Shown one piece after another: positions 20,431 through 44,470 of a DNA stretch of 64,000 nucleotides (position 1 is its first letter; each line of letters begins with the position of its first letter). The stretch is from Acanthamoeba sp. SK_2022b (taxonomy: Eukaryota; Discosea; Longamoebia; Acanthamoebidae): assembly GCA_027943245.1 (NCBI GenBank), contig JANDJZ010000100.1, positions 18,563 to 82,562 on the forward strand. Reading direction: 5' to 3'. The notes under the pieces were generated by a model, which was not told the origin of the DNA, did no database searches, and saw only the letters and a program-made list of their open reading frames with translations. The position numbers and the translations under genes are program-made.

Positions 20431-20649
20431 GGCATTTTTTGATTTGTAAATGCACGGCTTATACATTCTGTGCTCCTTTTCAAAAGGCACAAATGCTCAA
20501 ACTTTTGCTTCTTCAGCCAGGCCCTCTGTGCTGTTGTCATGCACTGATTAATCCTTGGGGCATCTGACGTTCTTGTGCTCTGTGTGAAAGAGCTAGTAAG
20601 AACCTACTCACAAGCTTTCCTGTTTGAGCCCTGTCATTCACCCAATTAG

Positions 20650-20874
20650 CACAAGAAGCTCTGCTGGAGCACCCATGATGACAACTTTTGGGAGAAGTGC
20701 AGCAGCAAGAAGAGGGAGAGGACTCCTTCCTCATTAAGGGACAAGGGTGCTAGGGGAAGCAAGTCCCAAAAGTGCCATCCATCTTCCTCACCTTCCTCTT
20801 CTTCTTCTTCCTCTTCTTCCTACAAGCACCAAGATACAGAGGAGGAGGATCTGTTCAATGAAGAAGAGTCTTAG
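20650..20874 (+). pseudogene. Short coding-like remnant with Cys/His pattern and poly-Ser
   Basis: One frame reads KKLCWSTHDDNFWEKCSSKK, then a basic stretch, a run of serines from TTC/TCT codons and an acidic end (TEEEDLFNEEES) before a stop. The C-x3-H-x7-C arrangement is vaguely like a zinc knuckle of a mobile element. There is no start codon in context. Family unknown. Confidence 0.25.
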
Positions 20875-21518
20875 AGCTCCCAGCCTGAGGACTCTGACCA
20901 CAATGTTTAACTTGCACTTGTAGATACAGCTTTCTTTTGTTTCATTCCAATTCTCCCCTTTTTTAGTGGGTCCCTTGTGCAGCAGACTCTATACGTCCCT
21001 TCACCCAGACAGTATAGGCTCTGTTTTCCCTACTTACAGTAAAATTTTCAATATTCAATTTTATCAGTGACTAAAAATGCTATCTCAAATATGCATATGA
21101 TTACTTAAACTTTTATAGTGAAAAATCCATAACTATTTATGCAATCAGAAGAGAAATATTCACCATAACCCATCGTCACAGCAGTAATGGATCACCCATA
21201 CCCAGTGATGAGCATAAAGATTAAGGTTTTGCCAGTACACCTCCTTCACCACACACACATAAATGCAATGCTCATGCACCTCCTTCACCACAAAATAAAG
21301 AATGTTTTGTTGGTGCAGCTGAGTATAACTGTTATGCAGGAGCAAGAAGAGGAAGAGTGATGTTTGGAGCCACTTTATTGAAGGGGAGGGTAGCAGCAAA
21401 CTGCTGTGCTCCACTTATACCTGCTCCTTGGCTTCTCTGCAGTGCCCACGCACTGAATCACTCTGTACATATGAGCTTACAGCATGAGTCACTTGTTCCC
21501 ACACTCCAGAGGGCATAG

Positions 21519-22290
21519 CTAGCAAGCTTCTTCAGGCAATCTCCTGTTGCAGCCCTGGAGCTCAGCAAGCAACTGGCTATCTCCAAGGAGAGTACTAAGA
21601 AGCTGAAGATTGATTATAAGTGCTCCTGCTGCAAGATCTGCCTACAGAAGCACATTGCTGCTGTTACTTCTGCCCTACAAGAGCTGTGCCAGAAGAGGAC
21701 TACCAGGAAAGTGCCTCCACCTGCTATCACCAACAATGAGTGGGTGGTGGTGGCAGATCTCATTACAGTCCTCCTCCCTCTACACTGGGCTATCAAGGGG
21801 AGTCTGCACCCACTATTTGCCAGGTGATGCTGATTGTTACCATCCTCTTCACTTAGCTTGCACCTTCAGAGGATGATATCTCCCCTCACCTCTACCTTCA
21901 AGGAAGCTCTGAGAACAGATCTCTCTGACCATTGGGGTACCATCATAGCAAAATCAGATTTGATTAGTCAGTGTCACCTCCTTCACCAAGCCCAATGCTG
22001 CAGCAGCAATTCTTATCTGTCTGTCAAGGTAGGCACCAGTGTGACCACCTTTGCTTCTGGTATGGGCTATCAAGGTGTCCCCTTCAATTTTCTATGTTGG
22101 ATGCATTTACACTGCAGCCTTGGTGCTGTTGCAGCTAAGCACATGCATTCCATGTATCAAAAGATACAGCATGCTACTGGCACCGTAAAATCAGTGATCC
22201 TTCCTTCCATCCCAAGCCTTGGGGAGGGTTGGAGTATGTGTATGTACTTGATGACTCATGAGCTGCAAATTATTTATATTTTGCACTGAA
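21519..22290 (+). pseudogene. Degenerate transposase fragment, possibly hAT superfamily
   Basis: An open stretch in one frame gives AISKESTKKLKIDYKCSCCK and then ITNNEWVVVADLITVLLPLH followed by a stop. A shifted frame continues with LTSTFKEALRTDLSDHWGTI and SDLISQCHLLHQ. The order EW...LLPL..A then FK..L...L..HW resembles the region before the LDPRFK block of hAT transposases. The frames are broken by stops and shifts, so it cannot be functional. Assignment is tentative. Confidence 0.4.
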
Positions 22291-22430
22291 GGAGATGATT
22301 TGATTTAGGCTGTCTTGTGGCAGTGTGTTCGCCATTGCCCTCACTCTACAATAATTGGTGAAGATCCACTTGATGAAGTTGGGCTGGAGTATGGGCGGAG
22401 CAGAAACAACGATCCAAAAGATTTCAGAAA

Positions 22431-23032
22431 TCAGAGGGTGTGCCCCTTTCTGATTGATTTGTAATCATTGATAATTACAGTCGATATTGTCCATATTTTT
22501 TGGTGCTGGTGCAGCGTGTAGGGGAGGTCACAGACAGGGGTTTGAATGGGGTCCTTGGCAGCCTGAAAGTCTTTGATCTTTGCAATCATGTTCTTGATGG
22601 TAATGCAGTGCAATGCAAATTCGCAGTACAACTCTTTGCTCAATTTGTTTTGCAATCTCAAATAAAAACAAAAACGTACCTTTAAAGCCAGCATCTCCCA
22701 TCCCATGCTCATCAGGAGAAAATCGGTTCCATTTATCAACTTCAAGGACTGCAATGTCCAAATCATTTTGTGACCCACCATAAGATGAAGACAAATAAAA
22801 AATTCGACCAAGCATGGGCACAAACTGCAAGATGGTGACAGAGTGCTGCTTCTTCTTGGCAGAATAAAGCAGTGTTAACACCAGGGCGATATGATGAGCA
22901 GATGGGCTGCTCTGTCCCATTAACAACCCATGTGTATAGAATTTGATGAAAAAGATGCTGAGCTTGCATCATTCTTTCATCATAGGAGGGGAAGATGAGC
23001 TGGGGGGGACAGAGATTGATACAAGAAATCAA
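22431..23032 (-). pseudogene. Degenerate DDE_Tnp_4 (PIF/Harbinger-like) transposase
   Basis: On the minus strand three frames together trace a DDE_4 catalytic domain: VVNGTEQPI (family: DGTE.PI, here D replaced by N), YSAKKKQHSVTILQFVPMLG (family: YSGKKK.H), IFYLSSSYGGSQNDLDIAV (family: GGS.HDL), DEHGMGDAGFKG (family: GDkGY.G) and ITIKNMIAKIKDFQAAKDP (family: VENTIGRIK.F, here E replaced by K). A tail HQHQKIWTISTVIINDYK matches the usual ending. Two of the three catalytic acidic positions are changed and at least two frame breaks exist, so it is a fossil. Confidence 0.75.
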
Positions 23033-23700
23033 TCATGTGATGATGAATATTATTGGCAGTAGATTTCAATACATTGAATAAAGCTGCCATCAACGCATCA
23101 ACAAGATAAAGACAAAGAAAGATGAAGATGAAGATGATCTCAGTGATGGGCGTTGAGATATCTCTCAGTTGAGATGGTGATGTGGTCCTAATCTTGTTGC
23201 TAAATTTACCTCACACCTTGTTAGAGATGGGTGTGGCACACTAAGCTCTTTGAGGTCATCATCATGAAGCCTCCAAATCGAAAGGGCTAAATGATCTGAC
23301 AAAAAATGGACATTAAATTGAAGATGCCTATGATCTGATCAAAAAGATTTATTTACCTCCATCTGCTGCTTTCTCTTGCTCACTCTTGTTCTCCTTTGCC
23401 TTTGCCTTCTTGCCCTGCTGCATCACATCTTTGCCACAGGAACTGTTTGAGCAACTGCTGGGTATCCCTCAAACTGAGGTGGAAGAACTCATCACCCTCT
23501 ACACAGTCAACAAACAGCATGCCTGTGACCACATTCTTTCCCCACTCTCACACATTTATTTAATTTTAATTTTTCCACAGCACTACCCCAGCTTTATCTT
23601 CCTCACATCTGTTTTTGAGATCTATCCTTGCATCATGACAAGATGCTTTCATTTCTTTATTCCCATTATTCACCCCAACTTTCTTTTCAGGATTGGCCAT

Positions 23701-25266
23701 TTCGCCTTGCTCACTCTCGTCACTTGTTGAGAAACCTCTTGACTTTTGCTCTAGATGGCGCAGAACAAGGTGAGTAACTCACTGGAGCGAGTTTTTGAAG
23801 TTTTAAAGCAGTTTTGGAAAGTTGTGGTGCGCGGCAAGAGGGGGCAGTCAGTTGAACTGCGCTCCCCCTCGCCCAACACACGCCAACAAGAAAAAACAAA
23901 CAACAATAGCTGGCCGAGGAATGTTGAATGCGGTTGTTTATTCTGCGAAGAAACGCACACAAGGGATTCACCACTTACGCGCAGGGCAGGACCTGCGGAC
24001 CTGAACGAAGAAAACGTAAGAAGAGGGCAACTGATTGCACAAGGAGACGGGAGAAAATAAGGTAGTGACTCATATTCTATGGATGGTACTTGAGTTATGT
24101 CATCAAAGCTGTTGGTAATGCTATGGTTCGTTTTCTAATCAACGTGACTACCACTCGCGCGAAGGAGAGGAGGGAGGCGAGAAAGCTTACCACGGTGGGT
24201 AGAATCGTGAACAGTGCCAGGTTTGGGTTGGCGACGGGTAAGTCATGCACACGACCTGGCGAAGGTGAAGTGAGCCATTGTGCAACAGCTACGGGTGTTG
24301 CATTTTAATGGAATAAAGAAAAAGAGCAGAGCTCATAGACAATGTTGGTTACATATGCTCGCAACGCTTAAGGTCATGCAGGCAAGCAGACCACGCCACG
24401 GCATCAAACGCAAATTATTGAATCATAGCAAATAAAGAGATTTGTAAAATCGCGATTGGAAGATGTGTTACCTTGGATATGTGGCGCTCATTGTTAGGCC
24501 TACCCGATGATCCGACGAGATCTGAAAAAGAGCTGTGTGAGAACTTTCGTAGTGGTGCAAAAAATGATTGTGAGAATTGGGTAAGAATCAGAGAATTGTG
24601 GTCAATTGTCCTCAGGCTTGGGATCGGCGATTATTGTGTCATCACAAAAGAAAGTGGTCGCGTGAGGGATAAAAAAATTACCTCTAAAGGTCAGCGAGCC
24701 AGGCGTGCGCTTGCTTCAACTACAGCAAGCTACTCCGGCGATCGTGCTGATCAGCTCCGGAGACGAGTGATCTGTGTGGCATAAGGAGCGGAAGTCTTAG
24801 CGGTAACTACGAGAGAGGGTGTGGCAAGCGTAAACATGAGCAGATGGTTTCAGAAGAATTAAGGTAGCGGGTTTTTTCGTCAAATTGAAAAACAATCGGA
24901 CAAATGCCTGTTGGTCATCATTGAAAGACTCAGCGGCCTTGGCGGACTAGAAAGCGTACCTAATCTCAGCCAAGGGCCATGCGGTGGTGAAGGTTGAGAG
25001 CCGGGAAGAACGGTGGAGTAGACGATAGAGAAAAACAAGAACCGGCAACCCGATAGATAAATACGGAATTTGATATTTTGCGGACACTGCAACATTGATA
25101 TCTAATTGGACATCTGATTGTGAGCTGCGCCAGTGGCTGGAGCAAAAAAAAAGGGAAAATAATTCATTTCCTCGACGCCAAGGCCTTGCGGGAAAGGCGA
25201 GCACAGATTCAAGCCTCTTGTGAGCTTAGAGGGTCCATCCATCTGTGGCAGCTCCACACGCGAGGG
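23701..25266. other. Unassigned region between island 1 and the FYVE-TBC gene
   Basis: CpG frequency recovers but stays below that of neighbouring exons. At 23,744-23,775 an acceptor-like CTCTAG precedes ATGGCGCAGAACAAG and a perfect GTGAGT donor, which would encode MAQNK as a first exon, but I could not find a convincing continuation. Open frames at 24,090-24,308 and 24,473-24,784 (the latter containing SLLGLPDDPTRSEKELCENF) have no recognisable family. The last few hundred bases should be promoter and 5' UTR of the next gene. Confidence 0.4.
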
Positions 25267-26954
25267 ATGTCAAAAACGGTTGATTTTTACGAAATGGAAC
25301 AACAATCGCCACGTAAGCAGAACGGCAACGTGGTCGAATCCAAGCAGCATACAACGCTCAGCAAAGAAGAGGAGGCGGCAGCAGAGCGCGAGCGAGTAAG
25401 GGTTATGTCCGGCGAGGCGCCCCCGATGCGCGAGCCCTCCTACCCACCGCCGCCAGACGGAGGTCCAGTGAGCCACGTGCAGGTAGTGGAGGGTATCAAC
25501 TGCTCCTGGGCAGACGAGCGCAACGTGCACGATTGCCCCATCTGCGGCAGCGCCTTCTCGTTCTTCCGCAGAAAGGCACCACCTCCGCACCCTTGCTTGA
25601 CTTCGCCCCTCTCCGCTGCTCTCCTCACGGCAGGCTTCTCTCGTGGCGTGCGGTATGCAGCATCACTGCAGGGCGTGCGGTGGTGTGTTCTGCTGGTACT
25701 GCACGGAGACACGGATCAAACTCGTTGTCGTCGGTTCACTCACCGAGCAGTTCGTGCGCATCTGCGACATGTGCGCCAAGAAAGGTACCACTTTATTTCG
25801 GTACATTAAAAAAATTAAATTAAACGAAAAAAAACCAAATAATAAAAATAAATAGATTTGATATCTTCAGTCAGTGTGCCCGGTCCTCTCACTCGTCAGC
25901 GTGCTTGGCCAGCGCATATTCAAAGTGCCCCAGTGCTGGAGTCGTTCATTCCCGACGACGAGATGAAGGACTGGCACGTCCTCATCCACTCGTACGATCC
26001 CGTTAATCCACAAAACAACAGACGGGTACGCACTTCTACCCCTTTCCCTTCGTTTCGTGTTCTTTGTCGTTGGCGTAGTGCTTACGCAACATCGCCACGA
26101 GCAGCTCAAGGAGAAGATCAAGAACCAGGACGTGCCCGATGTTCTTCGGGCTCTGCTGTGGCAGGCCCTCACCGGATCGGCTCAGGCCAAGCAGAACTCC
26201 CCACACAGCTACGCCGTACCGTCGCCGCTCCTTCTCGTTTTGTTGCCTGGGAGCTTTGCTCACGCCGGACGCTTTCGCACACCCTCACAGTCTATGCTGG
26301 CACGAGACTTGGACCCACAGACCGAGGAGCGACTGCACCAGGACCTCACCCGCACCTTCTCCGACGAGCGACTCGCCCAAATCAAATGCAGACGGTACAA
26401 CACGGCGAGCCCGCAGCACGTCCGACGCGCGCGCGCGCGCATGCACGCACACACACATGTGCACGCTACCGAGCAGTGTTGTGACCTGCTGCCTACAGAA
26501 TCGATAGCCGGCTGGTCCAACAGCGCATATTCAACCTGCTCAAGGCCTTCTGCCTCATGTACACCAACATCAACTACGAGCAAGGGATGAGCTTCATTGC
26601 CGGTGTCTTGGTGCTGCTTACCGACGAAGAGGTTCTCAGCCCCGTCCACCCCTATCCCCCCATTCCCTCATATGTGGCCGCTCTGCTTAGGCTCACTTCT
26701 CTCTCTCTCTCTCTCCCTCCTCATCAATGTATGGGCCGCACAGCACGCCTTCTGGATGTTTGTGCAGGTGATGCGCAAGTTCTACGTCGCGGGCATGTAC
26801 AAGGCCGGAACGCCTGTGCTCAAGCGGTGCGTGCAGCACTTCAAGAGCATGGTCTCCCACCTGTTCCCCGACCTCGACGAACACTTTGTACTCATTGCCC
26901 CTCGCCCCTCGGGCACATCGCCACTCGCTCTGCCGGTACCTCGTTCGCTGACCC

Positions 26955-26992
<38 letters not shown>

Positions 26993-27356
26993 AGAATCGA
27001 GAGGGCATCACGGTGGAGATATTCGCCAACCAATGGTTTTTGACTCTGTACTCGTACAACTTCCCGCTCAACTTCGTCTTCCGAATATGGGACCTCTTCT
27101 TGAGCGAAGGGATCGACTTCATACTCACCATGGCTCTAGCCATATTCTGTCATCAGCAAGGTGCTGCTTCTCGACCACTCGCCCTACTCGATGGCATTGG
27201 CTCATTTCTCGGAGTGTCCTCCGCGCAGATAAACTGACGAAGCTCAACTACATGGAAACGATGACATTTTTGTCCACACTGCCATCGGTCATGCACAATT
27301 TTCGAGGCTACATCACCATTGCCATAGAGATGCTGGAGGACATGGCCTCCGGATGA
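25267..27356 (+). CDS. FYVE zinc finger + TBC RabGAP protein
   Basis: Starts MSKTVDFYEMEQQSPRKQNG. The FYVE finger has WADERN, DCPICGSAFSFFRRK spliced to HHCRACGGVFCWYC and a C-terminal VRICDMC, giving the WxxD, RRxHHCRxCG and RxC elements that bind phosphatidylinositol 3-phosphate. A TBC domain follows: IKNQDVPDVLRALLWQALTG, LHQDLTRTF (IxxDxxR-type arginine finger), INYEQGMSFIAGVLVLL (YxQ glutamine finger), HAFWMFVQVM, FANQWFLTLYSYNFPLNFVF and WDLFLSEG. It should stimulate GTP hydrolysis by a Rab on PI3P-rich endosomes; the partner is unknown. The intron before HHC appears to use a GC donor (AAG|GCACC) because no GT fits there. The stop is at 27356. Confidence 0.9.
26956..26992 (+). repeat. 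GTGC tetranucleotide repeat in TBC gene intron
   Basis: About nine GTGC units directly before the acceptor GCAG of the exon starting NREGITVEI. Confidence 0.9.
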
Positions 27357-27525
27357 TCTCGTTCAGTACTGCACGTCAAGCTATCGTTGGTCTTCCCGCC
27401 CCTCCCCTGTTTTGAGAAGGAGAGATAGTTGTTGTCATAGTTATTTATTTTACGAAGGCCTTTTCGTGTTGGCATGACCTCTTTCTGTACAAGTACACCT
27501 CTCTCTCCCTCTCCCCCCCCCCCAC

Positions 27526-28508
27526 TTACTGTCGCTTGTTGCGTAGCAGCGCCTCCGCAATCTGTGTTGAGCGGTGTCAACAACACGATGCAAGCACACA
27601 CGCACGCATCAAGATGGGTGGAGTGAATGATACCGATTGGATGGCAGCCTCGCCCTGATTACCTGCCATATCCACCTCGAGCAGTGTGCTGTTCGCCGCC
27701 ACTGCATCAGCCAAGGCCTGCCGCATGACACATTCGCAGGCAAAACCACACATTGTCAGTGCGTGTGGGCGTGCTTTTGGGGCTGAGTCCATTACCTGGC
27801 TGCCAGCCGGTCCGATGTTGTTGTCGCGCAAGAACACTTTCTGCAGGCTGGTGTTGCCCCGGAGGGCCCGAGCGAGCGCGATGGCGCCCTCGTCGCCGAT
27901 GCGATTGTTGTTGAGGCTCAGGATGGTCAGCCCGCAGGAGCCCCTGTGGTCCATGAGGTGGATCATGCGTGCGAGGTATTGGGCCCCATCGGGCCCGATG
28001 TCGTTGAAGTCGAGGTAGAGCGACTTGAGCGCCGAGGAGGCCTCGGTGCCGGCCTGGCCCTCGCTCCCCTCGCTCCCACTGTCGCCTGCGGCGAACTTTG
28101 CCGCGTCACGCCACATAGGGTCCTCCGGCGAGCAATTGGCCAGCGCTGCCGCGAGTGTCTCGATCCGCTTGTCGCCTAGCGCCGCTCGTCCTGAAGTCGG
28201 TGCGTCCCAATACTCGTCTGGTCGCACCTGGAGGAACAAAGCATATTTTTGAAAGGAAAAATACACTTAATCGGCGGTAAAATATAAAGTGGTTCGGAGG
28301 AATGGAGCAGCACCTGAAGGAGCTCGAGTTGGCGGCGGTTGTGAGGAAGGCGAAGGAGTGAAGTGACCTCCTCCCACACTTCGGCGGGAAAGGGATCGTC
28401 CAGGAGTAGATTGACCTCATTGACCTCGTGGTCGTGCTTCTGGAGTGATCGGGCTTCCACAATGGCCATCTCCGTTTTTGTTAGGCCCTTCGCACAGCAC
28501 CCTCCCAT
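27526..28508 (-). CDS. Acylated leucine-rich-repeat protein (RNase-inhibitor-type LRR)
   Basis: The N-terminus MGGCCAKGLTKTE has a Gly2/Ala6 myristoylation context and two adjacent cysteines for palmitoylation, so membrane anchoring is predicted. Downstream are LRRs of the ribonuclease-inhibitor type: LKSLYLDFNDIGPDGAQYLA, LTILSLNNNRIGDEGAIALA, LQKVFLRDNNIGPAGSQ and LLEVDMAGNQGEAAIQS. The last intron (GTATCA donor) joins to IAEALLRNKRQ and the stop at 27526, a common ending for such proteins. The exact ligand is unknown. It is tail-to-tail with the FYVE-TBC gene, 169 bp apart. A 62-bp dispersed repeat lies 33 bp upstream of the start codon. Confidence 0.82.
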
Positions 28509-28540
28509 CTTTGTGCTCTCTAATCTTAATTCCAGTATTT

Positions 28541-28602
28541 TATTCTTGTTTTCTTTCGGCAGTTGGCCAACAGATAATTAGTGAGCCAACCAACCAGGCG
28601 GG
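28541..28602 (+). repeat. Dispersed repeat R1, copy a
   Basis: The block from TATTCTTGTTTTCTTT to CCAACCAACCAGGC is nearly identical to 34,467-34,529, with one inserted T and a G/A change seen. Both copies have the same orientation and each marks the edge of a CpG-poor island. Confidence 0.85.
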
Positions 28603-29448
28603 GTGGCTGCGGCTCAAGAGTACTAAGCATGCCCACAGCTACGTGGTGTGTATTCTTGGAATACACGGTAACGCTTGTAAGTTGGCAAGGAATGCCACCC
28701 ACGTTGACAATCCATTCAGGGCTGCACCCTCTTCTAAACGCCTGTTTCTCCTTGTACTCACTCTATCACTCCAACACACACACCTTTTCTCCTCTTCCAC
28801 CTGGCTCAGTGGATATTCAAAGTAATAACATTGTCAGCTTGCTATGGGAAGCACAGCCCTTATCTATGTTTTTTAGCACATGAACTTGACACTTGCCCTT
28901 AAGGTAGGCAGCTTTTTACTGGGAGGTGAGTTCAGTTTTCCTGGTTACCTCATGTTTGAAATTTGGACAGATGGGACATACCCTAAGCAGTCCTAACTGC
29001 TATATGAAGGATGCAGATCCTGAAGCACTTGTAAAAGCTGGCCCCATCCACAACAAGTCCCAGAAAGGGCTTGTTAGAATGATTGGGCATGATTGGGAAG
29101 AAACTGAGTTCAGGAAAAAGAGACAGTGCCTCTTTTTCTGTCGACATTTTGAGAAGGGCCAGTGTCTCATTTTCCTGAACACTCAGTTAAGAAGACATGA
29201 GTTAGCATGTGGAAGTGCTCCTCAATTCTGATCCACTTGTTGTTCTTGTTGCCAACTCTTGCCTTAAGCCTATTAAAAAGTGAAACAGATCACACCTTGC
29301 AAGAGAGATGGTGGTGACTTTCATTATTGTTGCAGCCAAGAGATAAGCCTTTGACTCTTCAAGTCTCCAAGAGTTTCTGTCTCCAAGCTTGATTTCCTGC
29401 AGATACGACACCAAGCTCCTCTTCCATCTCCATAGACGCAACCAAGAT
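28603..29448. other. CpG-depleted island 2
   Basis: No gene is supported. It contains the decayed copy of the Rab-like 3' end and, at 28,926-29,231, an open frame without a clear start that includes DWEETEFRKKRQCLFFCRHF; no family is recognised. CpG is scarce compared with the flanking genes. Confidence 0.6.
28722..28867 (+). repeat. Decayed copy of the divergent-Rab 3' end (repeat R2, copy b)
   Basis: Aligns over about 146 bp with 38,427-38,567, starting at CTGCACCCTCTTCTAAACGC. Of nine CpGs in the 38.4-kb copy, eight are TpG or CpA here and one is kept; a TTGTA-type insertion is also seen. The change is almost entirely C-to-T/G-to-A. Confidence 0.9.
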
Positions 29449-32400
29449 TTATTCTGAGTTATGGAGCAAACCAACCTGCAGATGGTCCAGGTCGTGGCCG
29501 CCCAAGTTGAGGGCATTGCCCATCTTAATATAGCCTTTCTCGTACCGCTTCTTGAGGATGACAAAGATGAGCATGACGAAACTGACGGCGGCAAGGAAAG
29601 AGCCCACGCCGATGCCCACCCAGAACACGACGAGCCTGATCGTGAGCAGCAGGTACACCTGGTTCTTGAAGTTCTCCGCCTCCGAATCTGCATCATCAAC
29701 CCCAACCATCAACCAAAGCCTCAGCGCACGTCCAGGCGTGGGCAGATGGGGGGGGGGGCGTGTACCACCGATGGTGGCCTGCTGGTTGGCGTAGAAGACG
29801 GGGTAGATGACCTCCTTGAGGAAGTCCTTGTTCCAGAGATTCAGCGGGGATTTCTCGCCCGTCACGTAGATGTTGACCTGCAGCTGATTCGCCACGTTCA
29901 TCGCTGCATGCGTACGGTTGAACATCAACATCGACGCACACAACGTTAGGCGTGGCTGCTGCGATGGCAGGACGACGTACCGTGGCCGGTGTAGGGCTCG
30001 ATGTCGAGGACAGTGTCGTCGTCGGCGGAGGGCTGCATGCCCACGACCTTGTCGCGCCACTCGGCGTCGCAGTCGAGCATGTTGGGCTTGCTGATGAAGA
30101 TCGGCACGTTCTGCAACAAAAAATTAATACATTAATACATTAAATAAATAAATGATAAATATTTTAAAATAGGGGGTGGGAAATAAGAAATAATTGGATG
30201 ATGGATGGCCGCAAGGTGCTTACGTTGTGGACGCGAGTCATGTTGGCGAAGCCGGTGATGGTCTGGTAGTACTTGGGCTGCGGCAGGAAGAGCCTCTGGG
30301 ACAAGTGATATCTGCATGCGCGCGGGCGTGTGTGTGCGTGTGTGTGCGCGTGTGTGTGCGTGGCTCGTGTGTGCCGTTTGTGCGTGTTGTGGGGTTGACA
30401 TGAGAGTTGGTTTTTTGGAGTGATTTCGTGCTAAGGAGTTTGCGATTGGGTGAGAGGTAACCGGTAGAGGTCGATGCCCTTGATGCTCACGCCTCCGGCG
30501 TAGTGGATGGGGATCTGGCGCATCACTTCGGAGCTCCACACCGTGAGCTCGTCGCCCGATTCTGAACGCGCCAACCAATCGAGTGAGCGCAAGTCGCTGG
30601 CGAGGCGCGCACGCACGAGAACGCGAACGCAAACGTGGAGGAATGCGCGGAATACCGAGCGATGGGCGGAACTGGACTCCTTCGGTGCCGTCGACCTTCT
30701 CGTCCTCGGCCCACAGCGTTCCGGCGGGGTAGACGCGCACGCCTGCGCAGTAGTGTTATAGACCTCACGATGGTCTAGCGACGCACGCACATGGAAAACG
30801 GGAGGGGCGGGTACCGCAGTAGTCGATGTAGCGGGTGATGTTGTCGATGTCGCCCTTGCCGGTGTAGTGGAGGCTGGTGTACTTGCCGTTGAGGGCGTCC
30901 TTCTCGCTGGTCATGTTGGTGGCCAGCGACACCGTGGCGGGCATGCCCAGCAGCTGCAGCAGCGGATCCTTCGCGCCCCACAGCCACTGCTGCGGCGTCC
31001 TATTTATTATTATTTTTTTGTTGTTATTTAATGTTAATTAACCAACAAATAATAAATAAACGAATTAATTGTGGTGGAGTTGGGCGGTACCTGGTGGTGA
31101 TGAGACCGCCGCCAGCAGCAAAGGCCTGCTGCAGCGCGGACTCAACGAAGGTTTGGCCGATGTACTGCAGATAACCAGCCACCTGTGTTGTTGTTGTTGT
31201 TGTTAGCGCGTGTGGGCGAGGACGATGCGCGAGGCCGCGGGAAGGGTCATGTGCCTGGCGGGCCTGGGCGAGGCTCAACTGGAACTGCTGTTGGAGGGTG
31301 CCCTCGTCCCCAGTGGCCACCAGATACATGAAGGTGCTCAGGTTGGTCGTGTCGAACAGCCCGCGGGTACCTGTTGTCGTTCAAACAAAATAATCAAAAA
31401 CAAAATATTCAAAAATCCCAAAGATGGGATCAATTTGAAATTATGTTCGTAAATAAATAAATAAGGATAAATATTTTTACGGGTGATCAGAACAAAAAAG
31501 TCGGTACGGACCGTTGAGGAGGTTGCGGCTGAAGGCCGCGTCGAACTGGATGGCGGCGGCGCCGAACTGGCCCTTGGCCCAGATGGCGAACTCGGGGATG
31601 CCGGCAAGCGGCGGAATGAGAGAGCTGCCGGCCAGCAGCTGCTGCACGCTCGTGTAGTTGGTGACCGAACCCTTGCCCCTGCCCACGCCGCAAGGAGTTG
31701 ACTCACTCTCACGAATTGTGGCCACGCCGCGCTGGAGGTGGCGCGACGCTTGCGCGATGTACCATTGGAGGTAGAAGAGGTCGTCCAGGCTGGAGACGTG
31801 GAAGTTCTGGAACACGTAGGTGACGCCGGTCGAGCCCAGGAACTTGGCGCGCCAGGCGAGCACCATCTTCAGCTGGTCCGAATCCAGCCCGAACGCCTGC
31901 GCCAGCGTCGTCATCGACGTCGTATCTGCGCAGAAGGCGCGAGCCATCCGTTCGTGAGCGGCGAGCGCGCAAGAGCTTGCCGGCAAAGCGAGGGAGAAAG
32001 GAGGGAGGCTACCCTGGAGATAGGTGGCGGCGAACCAGAGGAAGGCCGAGGAGTAGGTCGAGTTGACCAGGTTGGGCAGGGGGCTCGTGGGGTTCCACAG
32101 CTCCGCGACCACGGCACCCGCCAGGTTGGACGGGACGCCGCCTTCTTACATACCCACCACCGCTCAACGACGTCAACAACTTTCAGCAGAGCTGTTGGAT
32201 GCGAGCGTTGTGGCGATACCTTGGGAAAGGACGCCCAGAGTCCCCCAGAGCTGCTCGTTGGGTGCTGTCTCGTTGGCCCACGCAGCCGCAAAAATCTAAC
32301 CACAAAATACATTTTCCAATTAATTCTCACTCTATTCTCACACTAGGAGGAATGGAGTGTTGGCGTGCCTGTTGAGCGACCTCGCTGGAGACGTTCTGGG

Positions 32401-33171: not shown

Positions 33172-33483
33172 AAAATTAAGTGTCAAAATCGTGATTATGA
33201 GTAAAGGAGGAGCGATTTACCAGACAAGGCGCAAGACCTGCTGTGCTGGGTCTTGAGAGAAGACAGAAGAGGCAGAGAGGAGAGCATTGCCTATATTCCC
33301 TTTTTAGCTGACTTGCCTTATATGTCTGAGTTAATTAACATGCCTGCCAGCTCACCTGAGCAGATAGCCAATCCACCTACATTGCTGAGCCACTTGCTTC
33401 AGCTAACCTCAGCTAAATGATGATATGTATGTATACATACATATATATATAGTCTACATTGCTTCTCAATAAATTCTATTCAA

Positions 33484-33580
33484 TTTCTTAGTCTCCGGAA
33501 AAGTTGCTATTGGCTACGAATTTTCGTGGCAACCTGGTTGAAAACAAGTCAGAGTGAAAATCGAAACGGAGACTAAGAAA
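33484..33580. mobile_element. MITE-like element of about 97 bp
   Basis: TTTCTTAGTCTCCG at 33,484-33,497 is a perfect 14-bp inverted repeat of CGGAGACTAAGAAA at 33,567-33,580. No coding capacity exists between them. A target-site duplication is not clear. Confidence 0.5.
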
Positions 33581-33654
33581 ATAATGCTATAGGACATTTT
33601 GAGTGAATTTTCGTAGCAACCTGGTTGAAAACAAGTCAGAGTGAAAATCGAAAC
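33518..33654 (+). repeat. 50-bp direct repeat, period 87 bp
   Basis: The unit from GAATTTTCGT to AAAATCGAAAC occurs at 33,518-33,567 and 33,605-33,654 with a single G/A difference. The first copy lies within the inverted-repeat element and the second just outside, as if a second element lost its ends. Confidence 0.9.
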
Positions 33655-34466
33655 TGGAAGAAAAGTTTTTGTCCTTTTCTAGTCTACAGTTTTTTGGTTT
33701 TTCTTGTTTCTAGGGATACCAAGCAGGGAAAAGGAAACATGAGGGAAAAGTAAGACTCTAGTTTTCTGATTTCCCCCAAGTCTAATCACTGTTCTTTCTC
33801 CTCTGATGGTGCTCTCTGAACAACACCTTATGTGCTGACCATATTTTCCCAAGTGAAGTTATTAAAACTCAGGAATGGGCAAGTTAAAAATTGGAGGCAC
33901 ACCAAAGAGAACAGCAGAATGATCAGGGATCAATGACATAGGTAGTGATTAGGGTGTTCCTGACAAGTTTTCTGTGCCTGGTTTATAACTCTGGTAATGG
34001 TAAATGCTTTGAAAAGAATATTTGCTGTTGTGGGGCAGGCAGAAGTTCCAGGCATTGCAGGTGGCATGCTGCCTGGTGTTGTTCCAAGCCCATGCTTGTC
34101 ACATTCCCAGCCCACACATGCCAAACAAAAACCAAAATATAACCTAGAGGCTTGTGATAAGTGGCATATTGATGCTCACAATTTGTGATAGAAGGGTGGT
34201 CTCCAGTTGTTCAACTTCAGTCCACCTGTGTGTCATGTTGACCACATGTCCACCTTGCCTCCACCTCACTCCATTGAGTGGTGTGGGCCTGTGAGCTTGA
34301 AGTGCATCTGCTTTGGTATCTTTGTGGTGGGTGATGCCAGCAGGAGTGGGAGGTAGTGGTGAGCAAGAAACAAAAGTGAGATCAAGCATAGTAGTGTTGG
34401 GCATTAGAAAGAGAAGGAAAGAAATGGGGCACTAAAATCAGAGAAACAGCAGGTACCCAAGTATCT

Positions 34467-34529
34467 TATTCTTGTTTTCTTTTCGGCAGTTGGCCAACAG
34501 ATAATTAGAGAGCCAACCAACCAGGCTGG
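34467..34529 (+). repeat. Dispersed repeat R1, copy b
   Basis: Second copy of the 28,541-28,602 repeat. Here the end AACCAACCAG is followed within about 45 bp by its inverted repeat CTGGTTGGTT, so a hairpin is possible. Confidence 0.85.
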
Positions 34530-34540
34530 TGGCCTGCTTT

Positions 34541-35372
34541 AACAGGCTGTCTGATTGCTGGTTGGTTCGAGTCAAGCCCTGGAAAAGTCGCGTCACTTCA
34601 CGCATCCGTGACGTGGCCGCCTACGCCCCAATCGCGGATCCCGGGAGGGCCAGACTCCGTTACGCACATGGATCCTCCTTCGGAGAGGCACGTCAGTGTG
34701 CAGAGGGGGCAGATGCAAACCGAAAGGCGCCGACGCAACAACAGTGGATGGGCTGATCGCCGACGAGCGTTCGGCTCGCTGCCAACCCGCCTCAGCGCCT
34801 CCGCTGGCACCGTCGGGGAACGTCGTTCTACCATCCAATTCAGGACACGGAGTGACTTGACGCAGTGTCAAGTCCGCGGTTCACCCACTCGCAAGCAAGG
34901 GGAGGAGATTGAGCTGCAAATGAACGAGCGGGAAATTCAACGAAAGGCACAGCCGTGTACGGTCGTACGGGAGATGCTTGCGTGGGAGAGAACGGTGATG
35001 ACGCCTCGCGGCCGACTGATGGGTCATGTCTCTTGCCAAGGGACAACCCCCGATGATACCATAGGATCGACCACTGGGAGCTCGTTGTGTATCCTGAAAC
35101 CAACTCCCATTGGCGTGAAAGAGTACGACCGAATTCCCCAGAAGATTGCCATCAGATGGAGGGAGCTTCGGCTTGGACTGGAGGGAGCGCATAAGGAGAG
35201 GAGGGTTGTAAGGCGGGCTCTGGACTGGGCTTTTGTCTTTTTTGAACCATTCCACCCTAACAACAACCACCGCTCATCGTTCCCTTTGCCCTTCCGCAGT
35301 AACGTGAGGGATCACCTTCCAAGGCCCTCCACCGCCGCCCCTTCAATCAGCTTCTACCACATTGCCTGTACC
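34541..35372. other. Upstream region of the FYVE gene with a long open frame
   Basis: CpG content returns to normal. One frame stays open from 34,608 and runs in phase into the MGGTLSSP start of the next gene. ATG 34,668 (MDPPSERHVSVQ) would therefore add about 235 residues to it. The sequence has no recognisable domain, so I treat it as promoter and 5' UTR, but the extension cannot be excluded. Confidence 0.45.
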
Positions 35373-36865
35373 ATGGGAGGAACCCTTTCTTCGCCTCGTA
35401 CCGCCCAGCCCCAGCCCCAGACTCGCAACTTCACCAAAGGTACCCAGCTCGTTATGGCGTGGGAGGCGTATCACAACTGACGCTTCTGTTCAACTGTGGT
35501 GAAGGTGAGTTCGTGAAGCCCAAGCCCCAACCTGACCTGTCCTTTTGCGCCAAGACCAGCAAGAGCGAACCCATCTACATGCCCTCGCAGAAGCTCATGC
35601 AGTGCGTGCTCTGTCCGCTTCATTCTTGGTGTTCTCCCCTGTTCTCACTGTGTCGACATTCGGCCAATCCCGCAGGTCGATCGAAACGCTGTCTCCGCAG
35701 AACCCTGCCCAAATGATGACCGCCGCCATCTCCACATCGTGGACCAACGCTCTCAGCGACGAGGACCTCTCCTCGCGCTTCGGCCACCTCGTAACCTCCG
35801 AGTGCGTTTTGTTGACCACGGTTTTCGCCACGTGGCCGCGTCTGACTCACTCGCTTATTTGACCTTGTGATCCCAGAGCCCTCAACCCTTGGTGGAAGCA
35901 AGACGCCGCTGCGTGCGAGTGCCACGCGTGCAAGGCCAAGTTTTCCACTTTCAGGAGAAGGGTATGACGCCCCTTCCATTGCATTTCTGGTTGCAGATAC
36001 GAGTCTCACCTGTGGCATGGACGCAGCATCACTGCCGTAGATGTGGTGAGATCTTTTGCTACGCGTGCACAAAGCAGCGCATGTCTTTGCCGCACTTGAA
36101 CTACGGTCGCACGCCTGTGCGCGTTTGCGACAGGTGCCACACCTTCCGATCCAAGCAGTTGCAGACGCTCAAGACCGGAATCATGGTCAAGTACTACGCG
36201 CAGGAGACCAGTGGCCTCCGCTCCAAGATCATGCACATGAAGCTCTCCTTCCAGGATGAGGATCAGCTCCGTCTGTCGTGGCGCTCGCTCGACCGCGTAG
36301 TGGAAACCACCTCGATTGACTTCCACACTATCAACGGCATCATCTCTGGTTCTTCTAATTCGGCGTTCTACGCGCACCCTCTTCCTTCCACCGAGGATGG
36401 TACCTCTACCTCTCTACCCCTCTTCGCTTTTCGTTCTTTTGGTGTGCTGCAAGCTGACTCTCCTATCTTTTCTCGACAGTGATCGACGACCTTTTCTTCG
36501 CGTTGAAGCTTGACGACGGAACCGAGCTCTATTTCGAGACGATTACACCCGCGCAGAAGAAGGAGGAGTGGCTCGCAGCTCTTCAGGAATGTGTGCTTCA
36601 GTATCAGAACAAGCAGACGCGAATCGAGCAGGTCAGGCGCCTGCAGAACAAGCTCAATGCCAGCGACGAAGACAGCGACGACGAGGAGGATGCCGAGAGT
36701 GAGCTCGAGACCGAGGAGGACCAGGACCAGGAAGAAGACCTAAGCAACATGGGCGGCCTACCCTGTCTGGCCGTCACCTTCCCCGACCAGCTGATGATGG
36801 GGCCCAACGCACCAGCGGTCTCGACTCGCCGCGACATTCTCAGCCGTAGGAGGCCCAGCTTCTAA
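35373..36865 (+). CDS. FYVE-domain protein with C-terminal PH-like region
   Basis: Starts [19 protein letters not shown] at ATG 35373; Gly2 and Ser6 fit N-myristoylation. After three exons comes a complete FYVE finger: [22 protein letters not shown] spliced to [18 protein letters not shown], and [10 protein letters not shown]. This predicts binding to phosphatidylinositol 3-phosphate on endosomes. The following [35 protein letters not shown] and [20 protein letters not shown] plus [11 protein letters not shown] looks like a PH-type fold, the last piece being a typical C-terminal helix. The tail is acidic ([19 protein letters not shown]) and ends RRRPSF. The intron before HHC is at the same place as in the FYVE-TBC gene at 25.6 kb. 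A longer N-terminus is possible. Confidence 0.85.
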
Positions 36866-37501
36866 GAGCAAACCCCGAAACACCACCCCACCCCTCCACC
36901 TTTTTTGTTCAACACAACACCTTCACCATCTTCACGACACCACTATCCGCTCCACCATAATCACCACCATAACACAACAACGGGCTCCTCTTCCCTTCGG
37001 CCCCTAAGCGTGCGTTGCCGCTTTGTGGACCCGAAGTGGTGTACAGTTTAGAAGAAAGAAGTGAACAACAGCAACTACATAAAAGGCCAAACGACACGGG
37101 AGCTCCCGGTCTCAAGCTCGTTCGCGAACCAAACGAGAGAGCGCAAATGAAAGTGTACAGTTTTGGGCCGCCAGGGTTGGGTGGGGCGCGTTCGAGCACA
37201 CCGTCGCTCACGTGCCACGATAACCTTATTTCGCTTTCAGCTTCGCGTTTCTCTCTTTCAGCCACTCTGCAGTCGGCCGTCACCAAGGGGAGCTGCTGGG
37301 AATTGTTCGATTTTTGTTCGATCGTGCTCTAGAAGCAATTTGTTCATTTGATAGGTTGACCAAGCCGTTGTAGGTACCTCATCTCCCGAACCATGCAATC
37401 GTTCCTACTCTTGAGACCCCCCCCCCGCCGACATTGCTTTCAATTTTTTGTGATTCATCGATCAACTCATTTGTAATCTTTTTTTGTGGCCAGAAGCAAC
37501 C
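36866..37501. other. Intergenic region, FYVE gene to divergent Rab
   Basis: Holds the 3' UTR of the FYVE gene and the promoter and 5' UTR of the next. Poly-C and poly-T runs occur near 37,418-37,490. No gene is supported. Confidence 0.5.
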
Positions 37502-38442
37502 ATGTCGTTCAAGGTGTTCATCGTGGGGGACCCGGGTGTGGGCAAGACAAGCCTGATGCTTCGATTCATAGATGACACATTCCTGGAGGACACGGCGCCT
37601 ACGTCGGGTGGCCAGCCCGGCAAGAAGCGCCAGATCGAAGTAGACGGCAAGAATGTCGAAATCATACTCTTCGATACCGATGGACAGGAGAGATTCGGCA
37701 ATATCACATGCTCTTTGTACCAGGGGATGCACGGTACCTCGACCCCTCTTTTTTTTCTCATCCGGCCTGCGATCGTTATCTCCCCCCCCCCAACCAACGC
37801 CCTCGGCCGTAGCATCGGTTATTAGAATTTTTACTTATTATTATTATTTTTATATGTGTGCAGGTATCATCATCGCCTACGATGTTAACAACACGGACAC
37901 CTTCAAGGCTGTGGAGAACTGGGTGACTGAGATGGAGAGGTTTGGCTCCTTTGACCGATGGGCACCCATTCGGGCGATCGTGGCTGGCTGTGTGGCAATG
38001 TGGCGCTCATGCTTGCACGTGATGATCCGTGTGCACGCCTATCCAGGTATGCCAGAAGCGAGGTCGTCGTGTTCATGGTCGGCAACAAAACCGACGCGGA
38101 CAAGCGACAGGTGAGCGCGGAAACGGCAGAGAAGTTTGCCCAGGACAAGGGATATCCCTTCATGGAGACCTCCGCCAAGACGGGTACAACTGCCCTGCCT
38201 TGTCCTTGTTCTCTCCATTCCAACAGCTTGGCGTTGGCCTCTCCTTTGCTCGTTTTCTTCTCGAGCCAGTCGGCTGATACGATCGTCGTGCAGGGGACAA
38301 CGTCGAGGAGCTGTTTACGAAGCTTGCCCAGGCCATGGTGTCGCGCTACACCAAGACAGAGGTCAAGCCAGCATCCACGCTCGACCTGGGAGGTGACTCC
38401 AACGCGTCGCCGAAGAAGAAGAAAGTCTGCACCCTCTTCTAA
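37502..38442 (+). CDS. Divergent Rab-like GTPase with CAAX box
   Basis: Starts MSFKVFIVGDPGVGKTSLML. G1 is intact (GDPGVGKTS). Switch I is unusual (DTAPTSGGQPGKKRQIEVDG instead of TIGVDF). The G3 motif reads LFDTDGQERF rather than WDTAGQERF, keeping D and G but replacing Ala with Asp. G4 is GNKTDAD and G5 ETSAKT. GIIIAYDVNNTDTF and NVEELFTKLAQAM are Rab-like. The C-terminus is polybasic and ends in CTLF, a single-Cys CAAX box, unlike the double-Cys ends of most Rabs. Three introns. The effector and membrane are unknown. The CAAX codons and stop lie inside repeat R2, which recurs in decayed form at 28.7 kb. Confidence 0.85.
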
Positions 38443-38567
38443 ACGCCCGTTTCTCCTCGCTCTATCACTCCAACGCGCACGCCTTTTCCTCTCTTCCACC
38501 CGGCTCGGTGGACATCCAAAGTACTAACATTGTCAGAGCTTTCTATGGGAAGCGCAGCCCTTATTTA
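38427..38567 (+). repeat. Repeat R2, copy a (CpG-rich; overlaps the Rab stop codon)
   Basis: Begins exactly at the last codons of the divergent Rab (Cys-Thr-Leu-Phe-stop) and continues into its 3' UTR. It matches 28,722-28,867. Confidence 0.9.
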
Positions 38568-39006
38568 TAAAACAAACAACCGTTGCCTCCCGCGCACCCA
38601 GTGGCAACTGCCGTGTGGGCACGCCTCCTTGTAGCCGGAGGCGAACTCCGTCCGCTGGACCATGACAACTCAAAGGCCTAAGGGGGCTGGCCTCATTGAG
38701 TGGTGGCCACTCCCGGGCGTAGGTGCAAAGCAACACTCCGGTTGTAACGCGAGGCCAGACTGGCAGACGCAACGCCCCAGTCCACGTGTCCGGACCAACA
38801 GGAAAAAGAGACGTTAAATTTCGGGTTTACGGAGTTGGCAACACAAAAGGGGTCCCAACTACCCTGGCTCGAGCCACTTGCCGCCGCCCACAACAGCAAG
38901 CCCGAATCCGCCCCCTTCTCCTCTTTCTCAGAGAGTATCTTGGCCCTGCGTCTCCTTCCCTGCTATGTTGCCATAACCTGACCGGCCCCTTTGTCGCGCA
39001 GACATC
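38443..39006. other. Intergenic region, divergent Rab to dehydratase
   Basis: Apart from repeat R2 it contains a small hairpin (GCCTCC...GGAGGC near 38,625-38,643). No coding feature is supported. Confidence 0.5.
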
Positions 39007-40968
<1,962 letters not shown>

Positions 40969-41331
40969 AGGCCGTCGTGCACTGCTGCGGTCAGCGAGGA
41001 AGTGATACTCACCTCGTGGTAGTCCGTTTGAGAGTTTTCCCCAGACGTGCTCGCACTCGCAAGATGGTTTCCTTCCACTTGATGTTTAGCCCACTCGTCC
41101 TCTCACGTAAGTAAATACATTTATTGACAAGAATTTACATCAAAATAACACACAACATGGAACAGTAAGAAGGTCATCCCTCCTTAGAATCCGAATAATA
41201 ATAATAATAATGATAATAAAATGATAACAGAAACAAGAACAATAATTAAAATCACAGTATCGACAGAAGCAGAGATATGGTGGGTTATCTGACACCGACA
41301 CCGAGCGATATGGAATGGAAGACCACCATTC
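40969..41331. other. Convergent intergenic region
   Basis: Contains the 3' UTRs of the dehydratase and the EXORDIUM-like gene. It includes an AT-rich ATAATAATAATAATGATAAT stretch near 41,196-41,220. No gene. Confidence 0.6.
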
Positions 41332-42929
41332 TTAGAGGCTCATACCGCAATCGTTCTTGCTTAAGACCCAGCTTTGCTGGACGAGCCATTGCCTGCCGCC
41401 GAAGGATAGATTGGTCTTGCCTCCGTTAGATGCCAGCGTAGTGTTGCCGTATGTCCTGCAAAGGTGGGGTTGGGTGAGCTTGGTTGGGGAGAGCTGGGAT
41501 TTGTCACCCCGCCTGGTACCATGCGCACATATCGGCGTTTTCACATCCAACCTGGTCCAGCCAAGCGGCCCTAGCTGCTGGGGCCCAAACAGGATCGGTA
41601 AGCATCTCCACCATCTCGTGGGCCAGCAGGGAGGCCATTGTGTCTGCCGATCTACTCGACATTCCCACCGTCAGACAGAAGGAAAGCGAGTGGAAAGAAA
41701 GAGAGTATACCTTTCATTAGGGTAGGTTTTGAGTCCCAGTCCGAAGTAGGCCTCGTGGGAGCAATACTTGGTGCAGTAGTCATCCGTGTTATTGGCTGGA
41801 TTGGAGATGAAGGCGTACTTGAATGACGTTGTCGAGTTGACCACCTACGAACGACCCAGAAGATGAGAACGGATTTTGGCAAAGGCTGCTCATGCTTACC
41901 TGGAAGGAGTGGTAAGCGCAATACGCCCCTTGAAAGTTCTGTACACCGTAGCCACATGAGCCTTCGGTGTCTATGGTAAAGTGAGCTCATCCTTTTGTTC
42001 TCATAGGCTCGACCTGGTAAGGAGGCGTACAGACATCGCTGGAGGGTACGAAAAAGTACATGGCGTCGTTGCTTATTCTCGAGTTGCCCCCAACGGTGTC
42101 TTGGATGGCCTGAGCGACCGCGCCCGTGCTGATATACCATTTGTTCCAGGTCGAATTCCACACGGCGTACTTGTAGGGAGCGTTCACTGACAAGGCTCCT
42201 GTTGTGCAAAGTTATTGACCGCATAATCAGCTTTCCCAACCTCGAATTGTTGCCGTACCTCCAAAGGTAAGTGTGCTCGGAACGTATAGGGTCTGCCATA
42301 CCCAGGTTTTGTTGACTATGACGGCCATCCTAGTCCGGTGCTCAATAATGTTTGTGGCTCTTCTTGCACGTCTGGGGGAATGGGGAGAATTACCTGGAGT
42401 AGTACTCGGTTGAGATGTTGTACCAAGCTTGGTTGGAGATCCCGGACACGAACTGGGCCATAAGCGACTTGGTTCTGTTAGTGGCTGCTGAAGTTCCATT
42501 ACTGTGGTAGGAGGACATGGCGCCATAGTAGACGATATAGGCCACGTTGTTCCCGGCCATGACAGGTCCTCCGAAGTAGGCAATGGGAGCCTGACAGGTG
42601 GAGATAGCTCCTCTCTTATGCTGCTCTTCCGACGTTCCCTGGACGGCCTCGTCGCCCTCAGGTCGGTAGATCTGAAAGTACTCAGCCTCGATCTCGGAAG
42701 GCTGTACGCTGTTGTTCAGGGTGAAGTAGTCCTCCACCTCTATCTCCTCACAAGGGTGGCAGTTGCCCGTAACTGCAGGGCAAACGGGAGGTGTGGGTGA
42801 AGGGCATGTAGGTTCGTCATCTTGTGGGACAGCTGCTGGGATCATCCCAGCAAAGTTGAAGTTGAGGTGACTGTCCCCCGCTGAGCACAGCATAAGGTGA
42901 ACCAGGACCAGAAACAAGTATGGCTTCAT
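41332..42929 (-). CDS. EXORDIUM-like (phosphate-induced protein 1 family) secreted protein
   Basis: ATG 42929 opens a signal peptide (MKPYLFLVLVHLMLCSAGDS). The mature part starts with Cys/Pro-rich sequence (PTCPSPTPPVCPAVTGNC). The conserved core follows: IAYFGGPVMAGNNVAYIVYY, GISNQAWYNISTEYYS, AVAQAIQDTV, DAMYFFVPSSDV, EGSCGYGVQNFQGAYCAYHS, FKYAFISNPANN, MASLLAHEMVEMLTDPV and GCENADMCAW. The order GGPV, short hydrophobic Y/W stretches, SSDV, CGxG, and AHExxExxTDP then ENADxC is that of plant EXORDIUM/PHI-1 proteins, which are apoplastic and linked to growth control. The biochemical activity is unknown; the HExxE motif may bind metal. An upstream in-frame ATG-less extension to 43,079 is less likely than the signal-peptide start. 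Confidence 0.82.
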
Positions 42930-44470
42930 CAAGGAACGGGACACGAACAGGTTAGAGCTATCGGTGTCGTTCGTGTTGGTGTGAGTTCTCCGGAGGATGA
43001 AGCAGTAAGGTTGTGGGCTAGCCTTTCTAGGGCTTGCAGCAATCTCTTTCCTGCGGATTCTCCCAATCGAGAGGGTCAAAGTAAAGTTTCGGACTTCGGT
43101 GGTTTTGGTAGATGTTACATCTGCGCTTGCCCCTAAACGGGGGCTGTACCTGGATGTTTTTTGGCGAGCTTGACCGAAGGTGGAGGCCGCTTTTTACTGG
43201 GTGTTTTCCCTGATATAAGACGGTGCGAAAATTATCTAATCGTTTCTGATGGTGTAGCTCCTCACCTCATGATGTGACACCATTCAATCCATCCTAATAA
43301 ACTTATCCCATTATAGTTTTGTGGGCAGAGGAGGACAGTAAACAATTGTAGTTGTGTAGTGGTTATGGTTTAATCCTGTTTCATGCCATTGGAGTACACA
43401 AAGTTCTCTGTGAGAATGGGCCTTCCCCATGAGCGCAGGTGGTATGGATGAGCTTGTTGCTTGGTACACTGCTGAGCATCAAGAGTATCCATGCAAAGTG
43501 GTCATCACATGGTAGTGGTAGCCCCTGCCAAGTTCGATCTGTTGTGTACCCTTGTGCAGTGTTCCTGCTGCTCCTCTTCTCCCCATATTCCTGCTATCTG
43601 TCTCAATGTAATATTTAATTTAATCTTTGTATTGGTGTGTGCAGATATCTAGTGTGGTGCTGATAACAGATCCCATCAACCACCAAGATGGGAGGTCTGA
43701 CAAAACTGCTAACTGATAGTATGTGGCAGTGGTATCTGCAACCAAGCTCCAAGCCAACATGGAGTGCCACAAAGAGATACAAATGATATCTGCAGTATTG
43801 CGCATCCAGCAAACTACCCAATACCATCCACATTCCCATGTCTCCTCTCAAGCCCACAAGGGAGCAGACCAAACAGGTAGCTAGGTAGCAGAGAAAACAA
43901 GACTAAAAAGCACAATATCCTCATCCTTGTTCTTCCTACAAGCAACCAGAAGCTGAGGAATATCAGTTTACAAAGAGGAGTCCAAGACTTCCAGTTGTAA
44001 GTCTCCAACTACAAAGTTTGAAATGCTCCCCTAAAAAAGAGAGCAGAAAACACACAATGCTTTTAATCTTGACCATCTAAATCAAAATGACTGGGACCTC
44101 TCACATAATGCTAGAGGTGGTTTCCAGTGAAGGTGGTCATCCACCTTAGGGTACTGGGCAACCCTTGAATGAAGCAAAATGCACAGGCTCAATATAATGA
44201 TAGATTAAAAGTTACAGCAAGAATAAGCAAGATGATGATACACCTCAGGTTTAAGATATCTCTCATAATGCCACTGTACTAAAGGGTCAAGAAGTCCCTT
44301 CCCTTAGTTGCTGCTCCTCAAGTTCGGCAATTTTTATCTCCAAACTGGCCCCGAAATGCCTCTTGCACCATCTTTTCCCAAACATTTTTTTTAGCGTTTC
44401 ACTTTGTTTTACGTCACCAAAGGGCAGCAAACTGCCGTGGCACAGGCAACCCATTCACAACGCTGAAGCC
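42930..44470. other. Intergenic region including CpG-depleted island 4
   Basis: The first about 200 bp look like a normal promoter. From about 43,140 to 44,330 the sequence is CpG-poor with many TpG/CpA, like the other islands. Stretches such as SKLPNTIHIPMSPLKPTREQ (plus strand near 43,810-43,870) look like decayed coding sequence, but no family is recognised. The last about 130 bp lead into the phospholipase gene. Confidence 0.6.

Follow-up and report, generated by a model that had tools for sequence, protein, structure and literature searches.

Steep CpG-depleted islands of transposon-derived and gene-free DNA in an Acanthamoeba genome, and a related young hAT element with an arginine-codon signature

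A stretch of 64,000 nucleotides from Acanthamoeba sp. SK_2022b (assembly GCA_027943245.1, contig JANDJZ010000100.1, positions 18,563 to 82,562 of the forward strand), hereafter called the window, was analyzed for its CpG content with 500-bp bins and a two-state segmentation based on CpG alone. Both approaches recovered the four CpG-depleted islands noticed in a preliminary description of this DNA, with observed/expected (o/e) CpG ratios of 0.11–0.21 in the segmentation and of 0.12 in the four island cores, versus 0.99 across the remaining 55,961 bases. Island 1 spans positions 20456–23698 (o/e 0.12), island 2 positions 28703–29488 (o/e 0.11) and island 3 positions 33231–34558 (o/e 0.13), none being assigned to a strand. 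CpG is lowest in island 4 up to about 44325, so that its core was placed at 43242–44325, while the segmentation extends to 44682 with an o/e of 0.21 over the longer stretch. The borders described earlier were mostly kept, apart from 28460–28700, which is merely part-depleted, and the fuzzy right edge of island 4, and the three CpGs reported for 21,001–22,200 are exact (positions 21174, 21449 and 22184). The boundaries are steep, with 0–3 CpGs per 100 bp inside versus 2–17 outside at the eight edges, and the left edge of island 1 lies 26 bp past a stop codon, its right edge 57 bp ahead of an ATG, the gene ends being placed by eye.

Base composition does not account for this depletion. The four intervals originally described contain 19, 9, 8 and 10 CpGs, while the minima reached in 1000 base shuffles of each were 125, 28, 36 and 40, respectively. 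In addition, 80 overlapping 250-bp windows of low GC content (<0.48) lying outside the islands show a median CpG o/e of 1.01 and a minimum of 0.49, and GC content was ruled out as the cause by these GC-matched windows with normal CpG. Contamination was ruled out as well, as the low state sits inside the contig of the window and recurs on other contigs.

Genes are absent from the islands, as had been stated. Twenty open pieces within or next to them were scanned with Pfam and gave two matches, each to a transposase domain and both on the minus strand of island 1, namely a PIF/Harbinger-type transposase piece at 22531–22968 (DDE_Tnp_4, PF13359, 28.1 bits, cut-off 24.8) and, upstream of it as a separate open piece, a transposase helix-turn-helix piece at 22983–23210 (HTH_Tnp_4, PF13613, 28.2 bits, cut-off 27). 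The plus strand carries a hAT transposase remnant at 21393–21953, with three internal stops and 73% amino acid (aa) identity to the frame of L022, a related copy treated below (loci L and contigs C denote stretches fetched from the same 45-Mb assembly and its contigs, respectively). The remains of at least two transposons, PIF/Harbinger-type and hAT, lie in island 1, which bears out the dead transposases proposed for it, and the island also harbors a dispersed repeat fragment (family B, 20599–20984, no strand assigned) whose copies are 75–85% identical and occur on many contigs. The decayed gene-derived repeat proposed for island 2 holds for one piece, the 3′-end fragment of a Ras-family gene at 28722–28867 on the plus strand, whose CpG-rich counterpart (CpG o/e 1.09, 84% identical) lies 9.7 kb away at 38427–38568 on the same strand, where a Ras-family frame has its 3′ end. 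Otherwise island 2 has only short relatives elsewhere in the genome, and island 4 matched itself and no other copy in the genome search.

The mutation spectrum of the islands points to the fate of the missing CpGs. Over the four cores, a CpG deficit of 271 stands against a TpG plus CpA surplus of 320, which is near equal by strand (85/88, 16/17, 33/24 and 31/25 in islands 1 to 4). The o/e ratios of TpG and CpA are 1.42 and 1.38 in the islands versus 1.17 and 1.14 outside, confirming that these dinucleotides are common there, and that of GpC is ordinary (1.10 versus 1.06). The CpG loss of the islands consists of transitions at CpG and is not a general drift towards AT. The Ras-family fragment gives a direct comparison: with the CpG-rich copy taken as the source, eight of its nine CpGs have changed, six to CpA and two to TpG, versus 3/56 for other C or G transitions (Fisher p = 2.8e-7).

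These observations very probably reflect transposon-derived and gene-free DNA that has long been silenced and CpG-methylated, and whose CpGs have decayed. The islands would have been held silenced and methylated over long evolutionary times, during which deamination of 5-methylcytosine (5mC) to thymine would turn methylated CpG into TpG or CpA. Genes and promoters, by contrast, would be unmethylated and retain their CpGs. A DNMT1-like maintenance enzyme would presumably copy the mark at replication. The bases of the islands may be methylated now or may have been so formerly, and silencing would be the likely purpose. Judged from the letters alone, CpG deamination in the islands is well supported because the TpG/CpA surplus is matched and strand-symmetric, because CpG transitions among repeat copies far exceed a GpC control (see below), and because DNMT1-like, RFD, BAH and SRA exons are present in the genome.

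The search for a DNMT1-type methyltransferase suggested in the preliminary description was successful. A search with PF00145 returned 11 stretches on six contigs, none of which was recognised, without a tree, as RID. On contig C832, predicted RFD, BAH and catalytic DNMT stretches follow one another in order along a single strand, and C265 carries predicted BAH and catalytic DNMT stretches, both read exon by exon, and the PPCQ and ENV motifs occur in both. SRA domains, as in UHRF1, were found on C876 and on C1053, where the domain is interrupted by two in-frame stops or else by an intron, with a third match below the cut-off, and C421 looks like DNMT2 by its motifs. The contigs C152, C44 and C231, which are short, look bacterial by eye, with long intronless frames; they are likely assembly contaminants and were not counted as host DNMT sources. 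Also observed was an SRA domain together with a DNMT1-type RFD domain inside 2.5 kb on one strand (C876:18646-21096, minus), which are perhaps one gene. An alternative, compatible with the sequence alone, would be a cytosine deaminase that edits unmethylated CpG directly. A context limited strictly to CpG, and this on both strands, agrees with 5mC, and methylation machinery is present in the genome in the form of the DNMT1-like exons, leaving direct editing as the least probable of the explanations considered.

Some observations count against decay of methylated CpG. Restoring the TpG/CpA surplus raises island GC from 0.43–0.44 to 0.47–0.49, versus 0.59 in the high segments, and CpG decay accounts for only part of the drop in GC. 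A CGA-to-TGA origin was found for none of four stops in the hAT remnant of island 1 (221 aligned codons). Finally, no DNMT3-type gene was recognised in the genome by a six-frame search, which can miss exons.

Five long relatives of the hAT remnant were fetched from the assembly (L020–L024). L021–L023, which lie on different contigs and are 98.8–99.4% identical, represent a young hAT element roughly 2.63 kb long (L021 453-3087, L022 462-3088, L023 515-3148 (minus strand)) with short inverted ends TAACGCyGGG, a CpG-poor core and CpG-rich ends. Their frames between stops are 577, 568 and 577 aa in length, respectively, while L024 has a frame of 617 aa with 95% protein identity and an 8-bp duplication, and L020 is a broken copy in which the hAT end motifs were not found. 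Equal 8-mers, as target duplications, were observed beyond both ends in four of the five copies (L021–L024). The hAT dimerisation domain PF05699 was detected by Pfam in all four frames of L021–L024, and the BED zinc finger in that of L024 only; the DNA-binding end of L021–L023 may be lacking, or may lie in another exon or frame, and the competence of the element is putative. On C241, the hAT right end of about 430 bp recurs immediately to the left of the copy, next to a partial copy in inverted orientation (L021 20-449 and 2652-3087; L025 1832-2261), and these are nested or tandem insertions.

Depletion is already advanced in these young copies, the CpG o/e being 0.19–0.21 in the frames and 0.87–0.99 in the 200-bp bins at both ends, and the earlier statement that the DNA holds only the scar of the process was too modest. 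The remaining CpGs are unevenly distributed over the codons. In the L022 frame, 20 lie in CGN arginine codons, one in an NCG codon and none across codon joints, versus 276, 372 and 400 in nine host frames from the window, which were picked by length or domain with introns kept in. Expressed as proportions, CGN makes up 20/30 of arginine codons in L022 versus 276/336 in the host frames (p = 0.05), NCG codons 1/177 versus 372/1220 (p = 1.5e-24), and C among pyrimidines before G at the codon joints 0/78 versus 400/615 (p = 8e-33). A CpG transition in an arginine CGN codon changes the residue on either strand, while in NCG and across a joint one of the two is usually silent. The hAT lineage appears to have lost the CpGs that could be lost silently while selection kept the protein, and this codon pattern in young copies suggests that the decay acted on a transposase under selection and not on corpses alone. 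Copies out of selection seem to lose their arginine CpGs too, with changes to TG or CA in 12/19 alignable codons of L020, 12/20 of L024 (plus one other change) and 6/6 of island 1. One hAT lineage would accordingly record decay under transposase selection, its silent CpGs gone and its arginine CGN codons mostly kept until selection ends.

The transition bias looked for in repeat copies was found, since among the five hAT copies a transition separates CpG sites in 228/577 pairwise comparisons versus 113/1934 for GpC control sites, about sevenfold, although the same copies enter several of these comparisons, which are accordingly not independent. Per-site CpG ratios of 25–113 are inflated by the choice of sites, and the GpC-controlled counts are preferred. 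That young copies are depleted already, and that their relatives in a protein search are 32–67% identical, would also fit a hAT element that lost its CpGs in another methylating host and then arrived by horizontal transfer. Such a transfer is unlikely, as CpG-specific decay is ongoing among copies in the same genome and island 1 contains a hAT remnant of greater age, and it would leave the islands themselves unexplained.

Fungal repeat-induced point mutation leaves C-to-T scars in transposons, the Neurospora type preferring CpA to TpA. An active mutator of this kind, acting in one step on duplicated DNA, would explain why repeats are depleted. The TpA o/e is, however, not raised in the islands (0.62 versus 0.56 outside), CpA has changed to TpA in only 3/1120 comparisons among close copies, near-identical young hAT copies still have most of their 60-odd CpGs in common, and single-copy DNA, as in island 4, is affected too, unless an old duplicate was lost there. 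The islands differ from the fungal case in their CpG rather than CpA context, in the involvement of single-copy DNA and in young repeats that are incompletely mutated, making such a mutator very unlikely.

With long-standing methylation of the islands retained as the explanation, the hAT lineage may have kept transposing while chronically methylated, shedding nearly every CpG that could be lost without changing the transposase and retaining those of its arginine codons and ends as a codon-resolved record of silencing. We advance this tentatively, at somewhat less than even chances, as the BED zinc finger in L024 only lowers its odds. If true, silencing and transposition would coexist over the long term in a unicellular host, and the exhaustion of CpG might end up making such hAT elements hard to methylate. 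CpG exhaustion of this kind would fit the published lack of 5mC enrichment on Acanthamoeba DNA transposons.

The low-CpG state recurs across the assembly. Segmentation of the window with 30 loci yielded 38 segments of low CpG, which cover 80.6 kb at a mean o/e of 0.15, and 46 high segments (149.5 kb, 1.02), proportions that are biased by the 19 loci (L020–L038) chosen as matches to island 1; L021 and L025 share a 1.5-kb overlap in this set, and 30 kb of the high-CpG total belong to three bacterial-looking contigs. A low segment was detected in six of ten 10-kb stretches (L009–L018), those of L014 and one of the two in L013 being short and probably CA-type simple repeats. Long low segments occur in L016, L017 and L018 (contigs C500, C600 and C900), which were sampled regardless of repeats, and these are fair evidence for recurrence beyond the window. 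In L018 (C900:20001-30000), CpG is low over 8.4 kb containing long open frames whose codon usage is strongly skewed, chiefly to NCA and NCC, and the stretch is perhaps a satellite-like array.

Whether the process is directed at repeats is less clear than its chemistry. The preliminary description had proposed a deamination process aimed at repeats, of which the deamination stands, while the targeting is supported in part: all 19 repeat copies of L020–L038 lie within low segments, as copies picked by their match to island 1 (40 of 152 candidates were scored, with at least 61 matches), whereas island 4 gave no match beyond itself and the relatives of island 2 are short. As single-copy island DNA is depleted just as strongly, repeat targeting is no more than a possibility. 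By the same chemistry, all untranscribed DNA could be methylated and decaying by default, with repeats merely gathering there. The uniqueness of island 4, the short pieces in which island 2 recurs and the closeness of the island 1 edges to flanking genes speak for such default targeting. Against it, 23 of 28 noncoding stretches of the window (≥250 bp) have an o/e of at least 0.73, a weak argument, as these calls come from a crude codon-periodicity model that mislabels known open frames. Default targeting is a real possibility, although rather less likely than not.

Methylation with the same targets has been measured in Acanthamoeba castellanii. Enzymatic methyl-sequencing (EM-seq) of strain Neff places CpG methylation on silent genes and on repeat and intergenic DNA, together with histone H3 lysine 9 mono- and trimethylation (H3K9me1/3), with DNMT1 and DNMT3 encoded, 966 hypermethylated windows covering 3.4% of the genome and DNA transposons overall not enriched in 5mC (Sarre et al. 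2025, PMC12344493). The methylated DNA described there is of the same kind as the island DNA, and its methylation was measured, whereas the islands are a record in sequence from an organism whose species identity is not proven, a 22-base pattern of an Acanthamoeba 18S primer having given no match when up to one mismatch was allowed; the main text of PMC12344493 nowhere uses the phrase "CpG depletion". A survey, as far as its excerpt goes, lists DNMT1, UHRF1, CDCA7 and HELLS for A. castellanii (PMC10538959). A study of giant-virus insertions in A. castellanii (2025, PMC12210455) likewise describes, in the text available, intergenic DNA and mobile elements as the most methylated, 5mCG marking both within less conserved regions, a state presumed for the islands too, but it concerns large viral insertions and "deaminat" occurs 0 times in that text. 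The genome-defence mechanism proposed earlier would, as a reading of the window, draw support from these studies of A. castellanii (PMC12344493, PMC12210455), and if the organism is Acanthamoeba or behaves alike, the mechanism would be one already known.

Animal transposons are likewise methylation targets that lose CpG by deamination (in part PMC8857917); unlike there, the genes here are CpG-rich, two states adjoin across steep edges and depletion has already reached a young transposon. The accessible part of a RAG1 study (PMC11217092) resembles the hAT analysis in relating CpG and arginine codons in a transposase-derived gene under methylation, although RAG1 is domesticated in vertebrates, with 46% of its arginine codons being CGX, while the hAT frame keeps 20/30 and has lost nearly all other CpG. 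Across eukaryotes, 5mC is stated in the excerpt of PMC12695648 to leave no substantial imprint on base composition; the local effect in the islands is large and compatible with such a statement on global averages.

No report of a mutational footprint of Acanthamoeba CpG methylation was found in the literature searched by title and abstract start, and two points are new, namely the steep two-state CpG map and the signature that a young transposon carries in its arginine codons. The latter suggests that decay also affects lineages on which selection still acts, and the arginine test offers a simple separation of transposons depleted under selection from those depleted after death. If the methylation reading is true, DNA silenced for long times could be mapped in related assemblies from CpG o/e alone, with no need for methylation data. 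The same ratio could assist in placing gene borders and provide relative rates at which methylated CpG mutates in an amoeba.

Several smaller features were also observed in and around the islands. Rfam and tRNA scans of the window gave no matches. Two copies of a 77-bp repeat, 91% identical and both on the plus strand, lie on the island 2 side (28534–28610) and at the island 3 edge (34460–34537), thereby flanking in the same orientation, at the outer edges of the two islands, a CD36-family gene whose C-terminal match falls short of the Pfam cut-off. Island 2 contains an 87-bp imperfect palindrome (29102–29188), about 50 bp of which match 34 other contigs at 90–98%, and which looks like a miniature inverted-repeat element. 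Two repeats of island 3, neither assigned to a strand, recur on other contigs, the first (33567–33786) with identity up to 96% and the second, a small family of its own (33851–33958), with 79–92%. Positions 33485–33660 of the same island show, by eye, the inverted ends CTTAGTCTCCG and CGGAGACTAAG and a tandem copy of the inner part, and pieces near this stretch match C944 and C971 with order and strand changed.

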